The translations under genes and the position numbers were made by a program. This document shows, one piece after another, positions 10,362-42,417 of a stretch of DNA of 42,906 nucleotides. The notes beneath the pieces are model-generated. The model did no database searches and was not told the origin of the DNA. It saw nothing but the letters and a program-made list of their open reading frames with translations. The number at the start of each line of letters is the position of its first letter. Within the stretch, counting starts at the first letter, position 1. The stretch is from Candidatus Woesearchaeota archaeon (GTDB lineage Archaea > Nanobdellota > Nanobdellia > SCGC-AAA011-G17 > JAGVZY01): assembly GCA_018302225.1 (NCBI GenBank), contig JAGVZY010000015.1, positions 1 to 42,906 on the forward strand, given 5' to 3'.

Positions 10362-13562
<3,201 letters not shown>

Positions 13563-13809: not shown

Positions 13810-14895
13810 TTACTCTTCACCTTGCATTTGTATCAGTTCAATTGCTTGGTTATAATTTTGTTTTAAAAGCTCTTCCATTCCCTTGATAACTCTCTGAGCT
13901 CGTTCTTGATTTCTATTTACCAAACTTTCAGAAGATTTAGAATAACTATCAGTTAGTTCTTGCATTTGTTTATTATATTTTTCATTTGCAGCGTTCATAG
14001 CAGTTTTTGTTTCAGAAATTCTTTTGCTTAAATTAATTACATTTTTTAGAGCCTGATTATATAATTTATCTCTAGTTGCATCTGTATTATTTATAATATC
14101 TATTTCAACCATTTTTTCAATATTATCAACAAGCTGATTTTCATATTTTGCAAGAACATCAATATCTTTAAGATAATCCTTTCTTGTAGTTTTGAGCTCT
14201 TTTAAGAACTTTTCATATTTTTTCTTTAATTTATCTTCAGAATTAGAATAAATAAATTCTATTTGATCTCTCTTTTGATCAATAATCTTCAGAGCAAGTT
14301 CGTAATAATTCATAGCTTGTTCAACTTTAAAATTATTATTCTTACTTGATTTAGAATCCAAGATATTTCGGTATTCTTCCTCTACTTTCTTTTCAATATC
14401 AGATTTATCTAATTTTTTATCCAAATCTTTTCTATTTATCTCATTTATTTTTAGATAATCTATAATTGTAGTTTGGGGAGATTTTATATCTTTTATTTTT
14501 TCTAAATTTTCTTCATAAAACTGATTCATTCTATTTTTATTAAATTCAACTTCCCTATTAATGGCTTGTTTAGTTAATTTACATATTTCTTTTTTATTTG
14601 CCAGCACATATTGAGCAATTTCTTTACTTAAAACACCTTTATCCAACTTTCCCCAGGTATAATCAAAACCTACTACAAACTTAGAAATTTCTTCCTCTGA
14701 ATAGCCTATTGATTTTAAGAATAATAAAGCACTTTTTTGAAAGCTATAATCTTTTATAGTATTTCTATCAAAACCCTCAGTAGAGTATTCTTTAATTTCT
14801 GCAGGTTTAGTTTTTTTGTCTGCAGCATAAGCTGTTCCACCAAGAAGAAAGATTAATGCAGCACCATAAGTCGCTATCTTTGAAGGTTTATTCAT
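13810..14895 (-). CDS. Exported coiled-coil protein
   Basis: The ATG at 14895 gives MNKPSKIATYGAALIFLLGG followed by TAYAAD, a clear secretory signal peptide with a likely cut after AYA. An in-frame TTG at 14913 is less likely because the TATA box TTTTAAAAGG lies about 25 bases before the ATG. The mature part of about 335 residues is almost all helical and highly charged with heptad-like patterns, e.g. DKLKKKYEKFLKELKTTRKD and RISETKTAMNAANEKYNKQM. No enzyme motif is visible. It may be a cell-surface or periplasmic structural protein. Its gene is the first past the rRNA operon, converging on it. Confidence 0.8.
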   Translation of the reverse strand: MNKPSKIATYGAALIFLLGGTAYAADKKTKPAEIKEYSTEGFDRNTIKDYSFQKSALLFLKSIGYSEEEISKFVVGFDYTWGKLDKGVLSKEIAQYVLANKKEICKLTKQAINREVEFNKNRMNQFYEENLEKIKDIKSPQTTIIDYLKINEINRKDLDKKLDKSDIEKKVEEEYRNILDSKSSKNNNFKVEQAMNYYELALKIIDQKRDQIEFIYSNSEDKLKKKYEKFLKELKTTRKDYLKDIDVLAKYENQLVDNIEKMVEIDIINNTDATRDKLYNQALKNVINLSKRISETKTAMNAANEKYNKQMQELTDSYSKSSESLVNRNQERAQRVIKGMEELLKQNYNQAIELIQMQGEE

Positions 14896-14969
14896 AGCCT
14901 TTTTAACCCTCAAAACCTTTTAAAACTTTCCAACTTTATTTAAATAGTTTATAAAGCTCTCTTTTAAAC

Positions 14970-15736: not shown

Positions 15737-16603
15737 ATGGAAAAGAGGGAATTAAATAGACTTCTTAGTGAAATTTCTTTAGTTTTAGCTGCTTTTTTCT
15801 TTCTGAATACTTCAACAAATATTACAGGCAGTTTTATAGGTGTTTCAATACCTGCTACTGCAAGCTCTTTATTTTCACTAGCTTTTCTTTTGCTTTCTAG
15901 TTTGTTTTATACTTCAACTGCTCCAAAAGCACCACTTGAAGATTTAGTTAAATCTGAATTTAATTTAGCTAACGAAATGGCTAATTTAACAGCAGGGGAA
16001 AAAATAATTTATATTTTAGATAGCTCAGCGATTTTTACTTATTCAGAAAATACTCAAAAATTATTAACTCTTTTAAATACTAGTAAAGGTAATTTCTACA
16101 TAACAAAATCTGTTTTAAATGAAGTACACGATTATCCTACCAAATCTATATTAGAAAAAAATGTAATAATCTTAGATAAGATTGAAAAAGATCCCAATAA
16201 TTATAAACATTGCATAGATTGGGCCCAAAGTTCTTTAGAAGGAACTATTAAAAATGAAAATTATCTCATAGCAAAAGAATTTATTCAAACAGGAAAGCCA
16301 CCAAAAAATCTAGATAATACTAAAATGAATCAAATAATTAAAACTGTTAAAACTATACAAAAGAATGCTAGACCCGGAGAAACGATTACTAAAGATTATA
16401 TTCTTAAAAAACTGGATCAAAATTATGGCCTTTCAAATACAGACGCAGACATATTAGCTGAAGGAATTTATTTTGCAGGACAAAATATTAATGTGGTTAT
16501 TTTAAGTAATGATAATCATTTAAAGCAAGCTGTTGAAAATTTAAATAAAAAAGGAAATAGAAATGTTCATTATCTGCCCACATACACACAAGCAGTAGCT
16601 TAA
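15737..16603 (+). CDS. Membrane-anchored PIN-domain nuclease
   Basis: The N-terminal 60 residues contain two membrane helices (about 9-29 and 40-60: SLVLAAFFFLN and ATASSLFSLAFLLLSSLFY). A cytoplasmic PIN domain follows with the acidic set expected for metal-dependent RNases: Asp in YILDSSAIF, Glu in VLNEVHDY, Asp residues in LSNTDADILAEG and Asp in ILSNDNHLKQA. The domain order Asp...Glu...Asp/Asp...Asp matches Nob1/VapC-like PIN proteins. No antitoxin gene is adjacent, and membrane anchoring argues against a standard VapC toxin. A TATA box (TTTATAAAC) lies about 25 bases upstream. Confidence 0.85.
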   Translation: MEKRELNRLLSEISLVLAAFFFLNTSTNITGSFIGVSIPATASSLFSLAFLLLSSLFYTSTAPKAPLEDLVKSEFNLANEMANLTAGEKIIYILDSSAIFTYSENTQKLLTLLNTSKGNFYITKSVLNEVHDYPTKSILEKNVIILDKIEKDPNNYKHCIDWAQSSLEGTIKNENYLIAKEFIQTGKPPKNLDNTKMNQIIKTVKTIQKNARPGETITKDYILKKLDQNYGLSNTDADILAEGIYFAGQNINVVILSNDNHLKQAVENLNKKGNRNVHYLPTYTQAVA

Positions 16604-17112
16604 ACAAGTTTTAAACTTTTAAATTCATATCTTACTTTAATTTGATCTATTTTTTCTTTAAATAAATCTAAGGAGCCTCCTGGGAGATATTTTAAATCTG
16701 CCCTATCTATATTTATTGGACCATGAGTTCCAGAAAGGTGATAAGCATCTAAGAGTGTAGATCTCACAACTTTATTTTCTCTAAGGGTTGAATCTTTTTG
16801 AAGATTTCTGATTAAATAATAATTTAATTTACCTTCAGAATATCTATACAGCTTAGAAATTGTATTTATGTAATCAGAAGTAGATTCAAATTGTTGGTTT
16901 AACATAAGACCCAAATTAAACCCCTTTTCATCTTTTGCAATTTCAACTAAATAATCAAGTTCTTCATCATTAAATGTGTGATTATAAAAAAATAAATTAT
17001 TAAAATCACCTCTTTTCTCGTCTTGAAATTTTTTAAATCCAAAAGTTAATATAGACTTCTCTGAACTAACAATTTCTTTTTTTATATCATCTAAAAATAT
17101 TATCTCACTCAT
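16600..17112 (-). CDS. Hypothetical protein, 170 aa
   Basis: No family is recognised. It is a soluble acidic protein without a signal peptide, rich in aromatic residues (FFYNHTFNDEELDYLVEIA). The C-terminal region holds HLSGTHGPINIDRADL, which looks conserved. Its end overlaps the convergent PIN gene by four bases, and it starts one base beyond the stop of the upstream lytic transglycosylase gene, so it is almost certainly co-transcribed with that enzyme and may be a partner or immunity-like factor (inference). Confidence 0.65.
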   Translation of the reverse strand: MSEIIFLDDIKKEIVSSEKSILTFGFKKFQDEKRGDFNNLFFYNHTFNDEELDYLVEIAKDEKGFNLGLMLNQQFESTSDYINTISKLYRYSEGKLNYYLIRNLQKDSTLRENKVVRSTLLDAYHLSGTHGPINIDRADLKYLPGGSLDLFKEKIDQIKVRYEFKSLKLV

Positions 17113-18051
17113 TTAAATTTCCCCTGATAGAGATTCAGCAATATTTCCAACATTTCTTATATATTCATCAGATCTATTATATTTTCTAACAACCTTCCAA
17201 TTAGGATTATTGGGATGTAAAGGCTCACCATTTAAATCCGAATTCCATCCATTATCCGCAAGATATTTTGCAGAAGCATGTATTGTCTTCTTTATATTCC
17301 AAATATCGCCATCAGGATAATATTCATTTGCTGTGCTTGGAAGATACTGTCCAAAACCAAAACAACCCATATAGGAAGAAGGTATATCATTTAGTCTATA
17401 AGGCGGTATTTCTGCTTTCTTCCCAAATTTAAGTAATTCTGATAACTCTCTGATTGCAAAGTTTTTTTTAGTTGGTTCAAATTTATACAAAGATAAAAAA
17501 ACATTTACAGGCCTATGATTCCCAATATAATTTGGATTACCATATTTTGTTTCAATTCCTACAATTCCAACTAAACATCTATAGTCAACACCCAATTCCG
17601 CTTCAGCTTTTTTAAGTTCAGGTTTATACTTATTGACAAAACTCTTTAAGTTTAAATTTTCTAGTTTAAGATTTTTTGCTTGATAATATTCAAGATATAA
17701 ATTTCCAAAACTATTATCAAAATTTGGTTTCTTTTTTTGCTTCAAGAGTTTTAATCTACTTTTTTTAGGAGCATACAAATCAAAATCAATAGCTTTATTA
17801 GAAAGAAGTAAGTGTACTTCATAAGGATCATGACCGAAATCTTTTACTAGTTTATTCATTACTTCATTAATAGTTTCATCTAACCCATTAATAAGGTGAA
17901 GATCTCTATTCTGTAAAAAGTTGTACATTCCTACACTTTTTACCTGACGATTATTTACTTTTTGTTCACTTACTTTATTAGGCATATAATTTCCTGCTAA
18001 AAAATAAGCAGATAACAATACTACCATTCCATTTTTTAATATTTTATTCAT
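17113..18051 (-). CDS. Exported MltB-type lytic transglycosylase
   Basis: The 312-residue protein has an N-terminal membrane/signal segment (about 8-21, GMVVLLSAYFLAG) and a C-terminal SLT_2/MltB-like domain from about residue 135. The catalytic glutamate is E167 in VGIVGIETKYG, equivalent to the GVETxxG motif of MltB. GCFGFGQYLPST (229-240) matches the GxxGxxQFxPS motif. YYPDGDIWN and ASAKYLADNGW follow in family order, and the C-terminal KYNRSDEYIRNV matches the Y-N-x-S-x-x-Y substrate-groove motif. Such enzymes cleave the MurNAc-GlcNAc bond of murein. Archaea lack murein, so the target is presumably bacterial. It sits directly upstream of the 170-residue unknown gene in one transcript. Confidence 0.85.
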   Translation of the reverse strand: MNKILKNGMVVLLSAYFLAGNYMPNKVSEQKVNNRQVKSVGMYNFLQNRDLHLINGLDETINEVMNKLVKDFGHDPYEVHLLLSNKAIDFDLYAPKKSRLKLLKQKKKPNFDNSFGNLYLEYYQAKNLKLENLNLKSFVNKYKPELKKAEAELGVDYRCLVGIVGIETKYGNPNYIGNHRPVNVFLSLYKFEPTKKNFAIRELSELLKFGKKAEIPPYRLNDIPSSYMGCFGFGQYLPSTANEYYPDGDIWNIKKTIHASAKYLADNGWNSDLNGEPLHPNNPNWKVVRKYNRSDEYIRNVGNIAESLSGEI

Positions 18052-36038: not shown

Positions 36039-37022
36039 ATGAACAAAAAACTAATTTCATTATTATTAACTGGATTTCTTAGTATATTTCCTTATAGGGA
36101 TAGCCTAGCTAAATCAAAAATTGTCTCAAAAAATTTAATCAAACCTTCTTACAATTTTAAACATAAATATTTAAGACCGGACTATATCTTTTACAATTTA
36201 GGTATATATTATAGTGATAATTCTGTATCTGCAAAAAATAGATTTGGTATGGTGGTTCACAGAACAGAACTAAATGACACCTTAAGTTTAAAAGTTTTAA
36301 TTAGAGATCAAAGTGCAAACTATTTAATTATGAACAATGGTGATTTAAGAATTATAATTCCACCAAAATACAAATCAAACCATGCAGGATTTAGTATGTT
36401 TAACGGATTTGAAGAAAGATGTTTAGGAACTCTTGATGAAAGATTAAAAAATGAATTTTCTTTAAATATGACTTTTATTGGCGCAGAATTAAGTGGAAAT
36501 TGTAAATCTAATCCAACTAATGCCCAATATAAAACCTTAGAAAGATTAAAAGAACAACTTCAAGAAAGATATAAATTTCCAGATTATTTAGTAATTGGGC
36601 ATGGCATGGCTTCTTACACAGGAGATCCAGATAGCAAATATCATCATCAATTAGGAAATCATACTGATCCTGGAAAACATTTTGATTGGAGTAAAATTGG
36701 AATAGATATAGAAAGAACAAATTTAGATTTGATTCTTGAAAGAGTTAAAAGTCCTAAAACTAAAATTAAATCTTATTCTACTCAGGAATTAGTAGAATTA
36801 TTAAAAACAGTTCCAAATAATTATAATTTTGAAATAGTTAAAGAAAGTACAATTCAAAATACAAAAATCAAAATAGTTTCACTTTCAGATTTGGCTCATA
36901 ATCCCTCTAACTCTTACAATTTTAGCAAAGCATCAAAATGCAAACACTTTTTAAGTAATTTTGAGAGCATAACAAAAACAAAACTAAAAAGAAATCCCAC
37001 TTATAATTTATTTATCAGATAA
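36039..37022 (+). CDS. Exported N-acetylmuramoyl-L-alanine amidase (Amidase_2 type)
   Basis: The 327-residue protein has a signal peptide (MNKKLISLLLTGFLSIFPY, cut probably after SLA near residue 24). The amidase domain, about residues 65-225, shows the zinc ligands of the AmpD/T7-lysozyme family: H74 in MVVHRTE, H188 in VIGHGM, and D210 in HTDPGKHFDW, plus the conserved H-A-G (SNHAGFSMF, H115) and the E in FIGAELSG. It should cut the bond between MurNAc and L-Ala in murein. The C-terminal 100 residues form a separate, unrecognised region that may bind the substrate. It is monocistronic and upstream of tRNA-Ser on the other strand. Confidence 0.85.
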   Translation: MNKKLISLLLTGFLSIFPYRDSLAKSKIVSKNLIKPSYNFKHKYLRPDYIFYNLGIYYSDNSVSAKNRFGMVVHRTELNDTLSLKVLIRDQSANYLIMNNGDLRIIIPPKYKSNHAGFSMFNGFEERCLGTLDERLKNEFSLNMTFIGAELSGNCKSNPTNAQYKTLERLKEQLQERYKFPDYLVIGHGMASYTGDPDSKYHHQLGNHTDPGKHFDWSKIGIDIERTNLDLILERVKSPKTKIKSYSTQELVELLKTVPNNYNFEIVKESTIQNTKIKIVSLSDLAHNPSNSYNFSKASKCKHFLSNFESITKTKLKRNPTYNLFIR

Positions 37023-41156: not shown

Positions 41157-41405
41157 ATGAAAAAAAGAAAAAATGAAGAAGAATATGAAATAAAATGGTG
41201 GAAAGATTGGTTAGAAGCCGATTTATTAGAAAAAGAAAAAATGGTGGAAAAATTGCCAATAGTCAATGAAATGTGTGATTTTATTCACTGGAAAAAGATC
41301 CCAAATAAGATAAGAAAACATCTTTTAGTTATAACCCTAAATGGCTTTTTTGAAGATTTAGAAAGCGCAATGTATACAAAAATGCGCAATGAAAAGAAAA
41401 GATAA
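41157..41405 (+). CDS. Small basic protein overlapping a Fic gene, 82 aa
   Basis: The protein is helical and highly charged, with tryptophans near the N-terminus (YEIKWWKDWLEADLLEKE) and a DFIHWKKIPNKIRKHLL segment. No family is recognised. Its last 17 bases overlap the Fic gene, so translation is coupled. Such a pairing is seen in toxin-antitoxin loci, but the Fic protein carries its own inhibitory motif, so the small protein need not be an antitoxin. A TATA box (TTTATAAAAAATAAAC) lies about 25 bases before the ATG. Confidence 0.65.
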   Translation: MKKRKNEEEYEIKWWKDWLEADLLEKEKMVEKLPIVNEMCDFIHWKKIPNKIRKHLLVITLNGFFEDLESAMYTKMRNEKKR

Positions 41406-42417
41406 TTTTGTAGTCCCAAAAATAGAAACATTTAAATATGTAGTCACCCATTATATTCTTATGAACATAGAAAAGAGGAAATTTGGAAAGAAGATTAAGT
41501 ATTACTTATCTTATTCGTATAGAGAGGGTCTTAAAACCTATAAGCTCAGAAAATATCTTGGCCATGATTTAACTAAAGAGAAACTCAAAGAAAGAGTACA
41601 AATAGCAGAAAAACTAATTTTAGAAGAAATCCATAAATATAATATTATTAAAGACCCATTACAGTTTGAGCTCTCTAAGGAAGAAATTCTCTTAATAAAA
41701 TCATTAGAAAAACAAATCCCCTTAAAGATATCTCATTTATCTGAGCAAGACTGGAAAAACTTCTCGGAATTATTTACTTATAATACTAATGCTATAGAAG
41801 GCAGTAAATTAAATCAAAAAGAAGTAAAGAATTTATTAGAAGAAGACAAATGGCCTGATAAATCTAAAGAGGATATTGCTGAAGCCTATGGTGTAGAAGA
41901 AGCTATAAGATTCATCCGTGGAACTAAAGAACACATTTCCCTTTTTTTAATTAAGAAAATTCATAAAATTGTGTTTAAGAATTCAAAACCTTTTTCAGGA
42001 AAACTAAGAAAAAAAGGAGAAGAAGTTGTTGTCTTAGATGCCAATAGAAATATTATTCATGAAGGTGCGCCACAAGCAAGAATAACAAATTTGCTTAAGA
42101 GTTTAGTTAATTGGTATGAATTAAATAAAAGTAAATATCCTGCTTTGGTTCTTGGAGCAGTTGTTCACAACCAATTTGAAAACATACATCCTTTTGCAGA
42201 TGGTAATGGTCGGGTGGGAAGAATATTATTAAATAATATTTTAATTAAACATAATTTACCTCCAATTAATATAACCTTCAAAAATAGAAAAGAATATTAC
42301 GAATCACTCCGAGCTTATGAATTAAATAAAGATTTAAAACCCACTATTCAATTTTATATTAATCAATACAAGCAGTTAGAAAAAGAATTGGGTGACCACA
42401 AAAAGAGAGAAAAGTAG
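41389..42417 (+). CDS. Fic-domain AMP-transferase, self-inhibited class
   Basis: The 342-residue protein contains the complete Fic motif HPFADGNGRVGR (about 267-278), with the catalytic histidine and phosphate-binding glycines and arginine. An N-terminal inhibitory helix motif TNAIEGS (133-139; [S/T]xxxE[G/N]) is present, so this is a class II enzyme held inactive by its own Glu. The first 110 residues form a separate helical region with YSYREGLKTYKLRKYLG, a basic motif seen in archaeal Fic proteins. It transfers AMP to a target protein hydroxyl; the target is unknown. It is coupled to the 82-residue gene. Confidence 0.92.
   Translation: MKRKDNFVVPKIETFKYVVTHYILMNIEKRKFGKKIKYYLSYSYREGLKTYKLRKYLGHDLTKEKLKERVQIAEKLILEEIHKYNIIKDPLQFELSKEEILLIKSLEKQIPLKISHLSEQDWKNFSELFTYNTNAIEGSKLNQKEVKNLLEEDKWPDKSKEDIAEAYGVEEAIRFIRGTKEHISLFLIKKIHKIVFKNSKPFSGKLRKKGEEVVVLDANRNIIHEGAPQARITNLLKSLVNWYELNKSKYPALVLGAVVHNQFENIHPFADGNGRVGRILLNNILIKHNLPPINITFKNRKEYYESLRAYELNKDLKPTIQFYINQYKQLEKELGDHKKREK

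Follow-up and report, generated by a model that had tools for sequence, protein, structure and literature searches.

The genome of a DPANN-type archaeon encodes an exported-looking, predicted zinc amidase of the AmpD/AmiD/AmpDh2 type which, in an organism that shows no sign of having its own peptidoglycan, quite probably is secreted and acts together with an MltB-type lytic transglycosylase on the walls of bacteria. The window analysed here is the whole 42,906-nucleotide stretch of contig C15, which belongs to an 814-kb, 21-contig, 99.4%-complete genome and holds complete archaeal SSU and LSU rRNA genes. Peptidoglycan hydrolases of DPANN have already been published, and the window amidase is a further example. 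If active, this exported amidase would join the wall-cutting enzymes known from DPANN and would suggest a bacterial partner or prey for the archaeon. DPANN with cultured hosts mostly attach to other archaea.

Amidase domain, predicted zinc site and modelled fold

The gene had been proposed, in an earlier note made from the same DNA, to encode an Amidase_2 enzyme with a signal peptide and a full set of zinc ligands, and the domain and the ligand positions were borne out. The 327-aa product matches PF01510 with E=2.4e-13 (51 bits, against a curated cut-off of 26), and the predicted His/His/Asp zinc set (H74, H188 and D210) is complete in the sequence, with both histidines invariant and D210 falling, by pairwise alignment, at the position of the AmpD zinc Asp in the motif ‘TDPG..FDW’ (Table 1). 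E150 presumably corresponds to E116 in AmpD numbering. The N-terminus, MNKKLISLLLTGFLSIFPYRDSLA followed by KS, is Sec-signal-like as judged by eye, and the model places a helix at residues 3-14, within the putative signal peptide; a SecY-like ORF, likewise read by eye, lies on another contig of the same genome. A sigma-70-type promoter scan has no meaning for archaeal DNA.

Table 1. Positions in the window of the amidase gene, its parts and the transglycosylase gene
Feature	Position	Strand	Basis
Exported-looking AmpD/AmiD-type Amidase_2 enzyme	36039..37022	+	ORF, 327 aa, ATG start; PF01510; fold match
Putative Sec-type signal peptide, residues 1-24 (..DSLA, then KS)	36039..36110	+	Translation, by inspection
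Amidase_2 catalytic domain, residues 71-212	36249..36674	+	Pfam match and confident modelled core
H74, predicted zinc ligand 1	36258..36260	+	Invariant, 38 aligned sequences
E150, predicted catalytic Glu	36486..36488	+	Invariant, 38 sequences; aligned near AmpD IGIEL motif
H188, predicted zinc ligand 2	36600..36602	+	Invariant, 38 sequences
D210, predicted zinc ligand 3, TDPG motif	36666..36668	+	Pairwise aligned to AmpD RKTDPGPSFDW
C-terminal tail, residues 223-327	36705..37019	+	No recognised wall-binding domain; mostly low pLDDT
MltB-type lytic transglycosylase (SLT_2), 312 aa, exported-looking	17113..18051	-	PF13406, E=2.7e-25

The surroundings of the third ligand are less regular. Where AmpD has its usual active-site Lys, at the second position ahead of the Asp ligand, the alignment shows His208, and because of this replacement the activity of the amidase is not certain. 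H188 and D210 are separated by 22 residues, as against about 10 in AmpD, and the AmpD equivalog model (NCBIfam NF008758, PRK11789) gave the amidase 40.1 bits, under its cut-off of 143.

Two AlphaFold2 models were made with alignments built from the window and related-locus sequences. Core blocks at about residues 71-110 and 151-180 had pLDDT values >90, residues 194-209 had values <50, and most of the C-terminal tail was also low. The first model (A4) was poor at the third-ligand region, and the second alignment bettered residues 211-220 only. Foldseek placed the AmpDh2/AmiD/AmpD class among the best matches of the amidase model, the second model aligning with AmpDh2 at Z 18.1 (rmsd 2.2, 135 residues), with AmiD at Z 17.0 and with AmpD at Z 15.3. 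As modelled, the fold of the catalytic domain is of the AmpD/AmiD/AmpDh2 type.

Like AmpDh2, AmiD and AmpD of Proteobacteria (PDB 4bpa, 4bol, 2bh7, 2y28), the window amidase thus combines the same core fold (Z 15-18) with the same predicted zinc His/His/Asp, catalytic Glu and TDPG..FDW motif, at about 26-28% identity across the aligned core. It differs from them in having His208 for Lys, more residues in the loop that joins ligands 2 and 3 and another C-terminal tail, as well as in its carrier, an archaeon without sign of its own peptidoglycan. The wall-binding fold for which the earlier note had suggested modelling the C-terminal ~100 residues did not materialise: neither Pfam nor comparison with the C-terminal repeats of relatives detected a wall-binding domain in the tail, and the stretch was modelled poorly.

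Genomic setting and other wall-cutting genes

The amidase gene has a GC content of 0.26 and a GC3 of 0.14, close to the values of neighbouring genes, and is flanked by genes for a probable Dph5 (a TP_methylase gene read as diphthine synthase), tRNA-Ser and a U32 peptidase; ThrRS also belongs to this cellular neighbourhood. Contamination of the assembly is therefore unlikely. Peptidoglycan synthesis was sought in the archaeon’s own genome through profile searches for two families, the PF00905 transpeptidase and the PF08245 Mur ligase domain (Mur_ligase_M), and neither had any match, with controls matching 10/14 genomes for PF00905 and 12/14 for PF08245. The archaeon appears incapable of building a bacterial cell wall, which points to bacterial peptidoglycan as the most likely substrate of the amidase.

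The MltB-type protein, the only SLT_2 protein in the genome, retains the Glu of the G-I-E-T motif in an alignment. Its gene is abutted on the same strand by a 170-aa ORF (window 16600-17112, -) that has no convincing Pfam match and is possibly co-transcribed. Describing the amidase as a “second” murein hydrolase proved too low a count, since the genome has a further Amidase_2 protein and another that bears a pair of SLT domains. The former (L068 6285-6686, contig C10) is small, with 134-146 aa and no signal-like N-terminus; its neighbour is a 101-aa protein containing a single hydrophobic stretch, and primase and LeuRS were recognised by eye in the flanks. The latter (L160 34-1812) carries both SLT domains (PF01464) in one protein on contig C18, a 6.7-kb contig on which ORFs for S8e and TFB were also recognised by eye. 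It lies near the contig start, in a frame that reaches near the contig end, and is possibly longer than seen.

Relatives of the amidase and its pairing with SLT_2

The sequences most similar to the amidase, gathered in part by a scan with an alignment of the relatives alone, belong to Amidase_2 proteins that carry an HSMVAYG motif; the majority are bacterial (many from Verrucomicrobiota/Kiritimatiellae), with a few from DPANN. Across the genomes and viral contigs searched, the closest relatives are ~33% identical over the domain, and no close archaeal orthologue was found among 99 relatives or 371 phylum genomes, where the matches were weak and confined to the domain. The HSMVAYG family (L085-L157) is the best profile match (65.5 bits) and has the motifs SM(W/F).G and HxMxxY in common with the window amidase. 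It differs in its predicted third ligand, a Cys (HRGRK[RK]C) rather than Asp210, in the C-terminal repeats that most of its members bear, to which the window tail has no match, and in the often Tat-like RRxF start of the DPANN members examined, compared with the start of the window amidase, Sec-signal-like by eye. One candidate relative, a match in genome G026 (L004), was subtilisin-like by eye and was discarded.

In the tree, the window amidase falls outside the HSMVAYG clade on a long branch. Its join with L078 (99/90) was set aside as possibly spurious, each of the two being a long branch. Three DPANN members (L019, L020 and L023) sit apart from one another among bacteria, in a region where many forks are weak, a pattern which suggests that related amidases may have entered DPANN by several separate transfers. 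The window amidase may thus also have come by transfer from bacteria.

That note had also taken the presence of both activities in one window as a sign of a deliberate antibacterial or host-interaction toolkit. Proximity is no evidence for this, because 18 kb of unrelated genes separate the two; what does speak for a toolkit are the complementary, exported-looking domains, the lack of a transpeptidase or Mur ligase match in the genome and a fusion of the two domains elsewhere. The fusion is an 822-aa protein from a Deltaproteobacteria MAG (L094 6693-9158, +) in which SLT_2 (E=1.6e-33) shares a single frame with Amidase_2 (E=4.6e-20); it was seen once among 73 loci, and the flanks of the HSMVAYG-family loci held no other SLT_2 near the amidase. 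Its C-terminal repeats look LysM-like by eye and have no Pfam match. Both genes also occur 11 kb apart on a Pacearchaeota contig (G404). The fusion and this shared contig favour joint action of SLT_2 and amidase, and the fusion ties the two activities together in a concrete form that can be tested.

Co-occurrence of the pair across genomes, which the earlier note had suggested as a check, with absence of the pair from all related genomes as the refuting outcome, spoke in part against the toolkit. Amidase_2 was present in 13/103 genomes of the same order, and SLT_2 above the cut-off in 1/103, the window genome, which was likewise the only one to have the pair. Among 371 genomes sampled from the phylum, SLT_2 above the cut-off was found in 13, Amidase_2 in 40 and both in 5. 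One-sided Fisher tests gave P=0.0076 for all 371 genomes, 0.028 without the window genome and 0.27 after genus g139 had also been collapsed, values to be read as descriptive, because the rule of counting SLT_2 above the cut-off was a choice and three groupings were tried. The count is weaker still in that the Amidase_2 of two of the genomes, G181 and G230, belongs to a different type that lacks a signal-like N-terminus. Phylum-wide co-occurrence of amidase and SLT_2 is weak.

Archaeal peptidoglycan hydrolases have been surveyed in PMC12352652 (Strock et al. 2025), which lists Nanoarchaeota as rich in them and reports that two haloarchaeal enzymes kill bacteria. These hydrolases and the window amidase have in common a wall-cutting catalytic domain, a signal-like N-terminus and an archaeal carrier; the modular definition used in that work needs a wall-binding domain, and the window amidase has none in Pfam. 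Murein transglycosylases of Pacearchaeota and Woesearchaeota are described in PMC8204110 and PMC9723730. Like the SLT-domain protein of the window genome, they are predicted bacterial-wall cutters of DPANN; they are transglycosylases, whereas the window gene encodes an exported-looking amidase.

Proposed function and alternatives

What follows on the export and activity of the amidase, on the order in which the enzymes act and on their use to the archaeon is inferred. H74, H188 and D210 would hold zinc and E150 would activate water, and the enzyme, judged by its family, would work outside the cell, hydrolysing the MurNAc-L-Ala bond of bacterial peptidoglycan or of fragments derived from it. 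The MltB-type transglycosylase would first free 1,6-anhydro-muropeptides, and the amidase would work best afterwards; in bacteria, MltB makes anhydro-muropeptides, and the AmpD/AmiD/AmpDh2 class accepts them. Most likely, the archaeon would in this way breach or digest the walls of any bacteria that it contacts, gaining cell contents and muropeptides, so that the amidase probably helps it to feed on or attack neighbouring bacteria. The antibacterial precedent for archaeal peptidoglycan hydrolases (PMC12352652) supports wall digestion, as do the murein transglycosylases known from DPANN (PMC8204110, PMC9723730).

Scavenging is a serious competitor, though we favour it less. The secreted amidase and transglycosylase would then degrade free fragments or dead cells, the peptides being imported as food, which fits the making or use of anhydro-muropeptides by MltB and the AmpD/AmiD/AmpDh2 class in bacteria, as generally known, and the lack of a wall-targeting domain in the amidase. 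This option has been raised in PMC12352652 and PMC11537232. Against it, an exported MltB-type enzyme can act on intact walls too. A further proposal is rather doubtful: some DPANN would possess a two-step route of wall digestion taken over from bacteria, in which the MltB-type enzyme yields anhydro-muropeptides and the exported AmpD-type amidase strips their peptides, in the service of feeding on bacteria or of predation.

An inactive protein of the Amidase_2 fold that, in the manner of non-catalytic PGRPs, attaches to bacterial walls would account for His208 at the position of the catalytic Lys and for the divergent, poorly modelled third-ligand region, but the sequence retains the catalytic Glu and the full set of three predicted zinc ligands, and we consider it improbable. 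A virus-derived endolysin retained after infection, whether for lytic use or now idle, is highly improbable, since its trace in weak PHROG endolysin matches (E 5.5e-6) is set against cellular neighbours (probable Dph5, U32 peptidase, tRNA-Ser and ThrRS), no relatives in IMG/VR contigs in scans with either the protein or the alignment, a signal-like N-terminus, and the fact that an archaeal virus needs no murein lysin to leave its host. A tblastn search of phages and plasmids returned AmpD-like or endolysin matches only, at about 27-34% identity over less than half of the protein.

Three other features of the window were recorded. The archaeal LSU rRNA gene contains a group I intron match at 12294-12535 (+), which scores 60.9 bits where the gathering score is 50. 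At 13810-14913 (-) lies a gene for a 367-aa protein with a signal-like N-terminus, charged coiled-coil-like sequence and no Pfam match. A Fic-domain protein encoded at 41389-42417 (+) matches the SoFic and PDC-S04 models in PADLOC.
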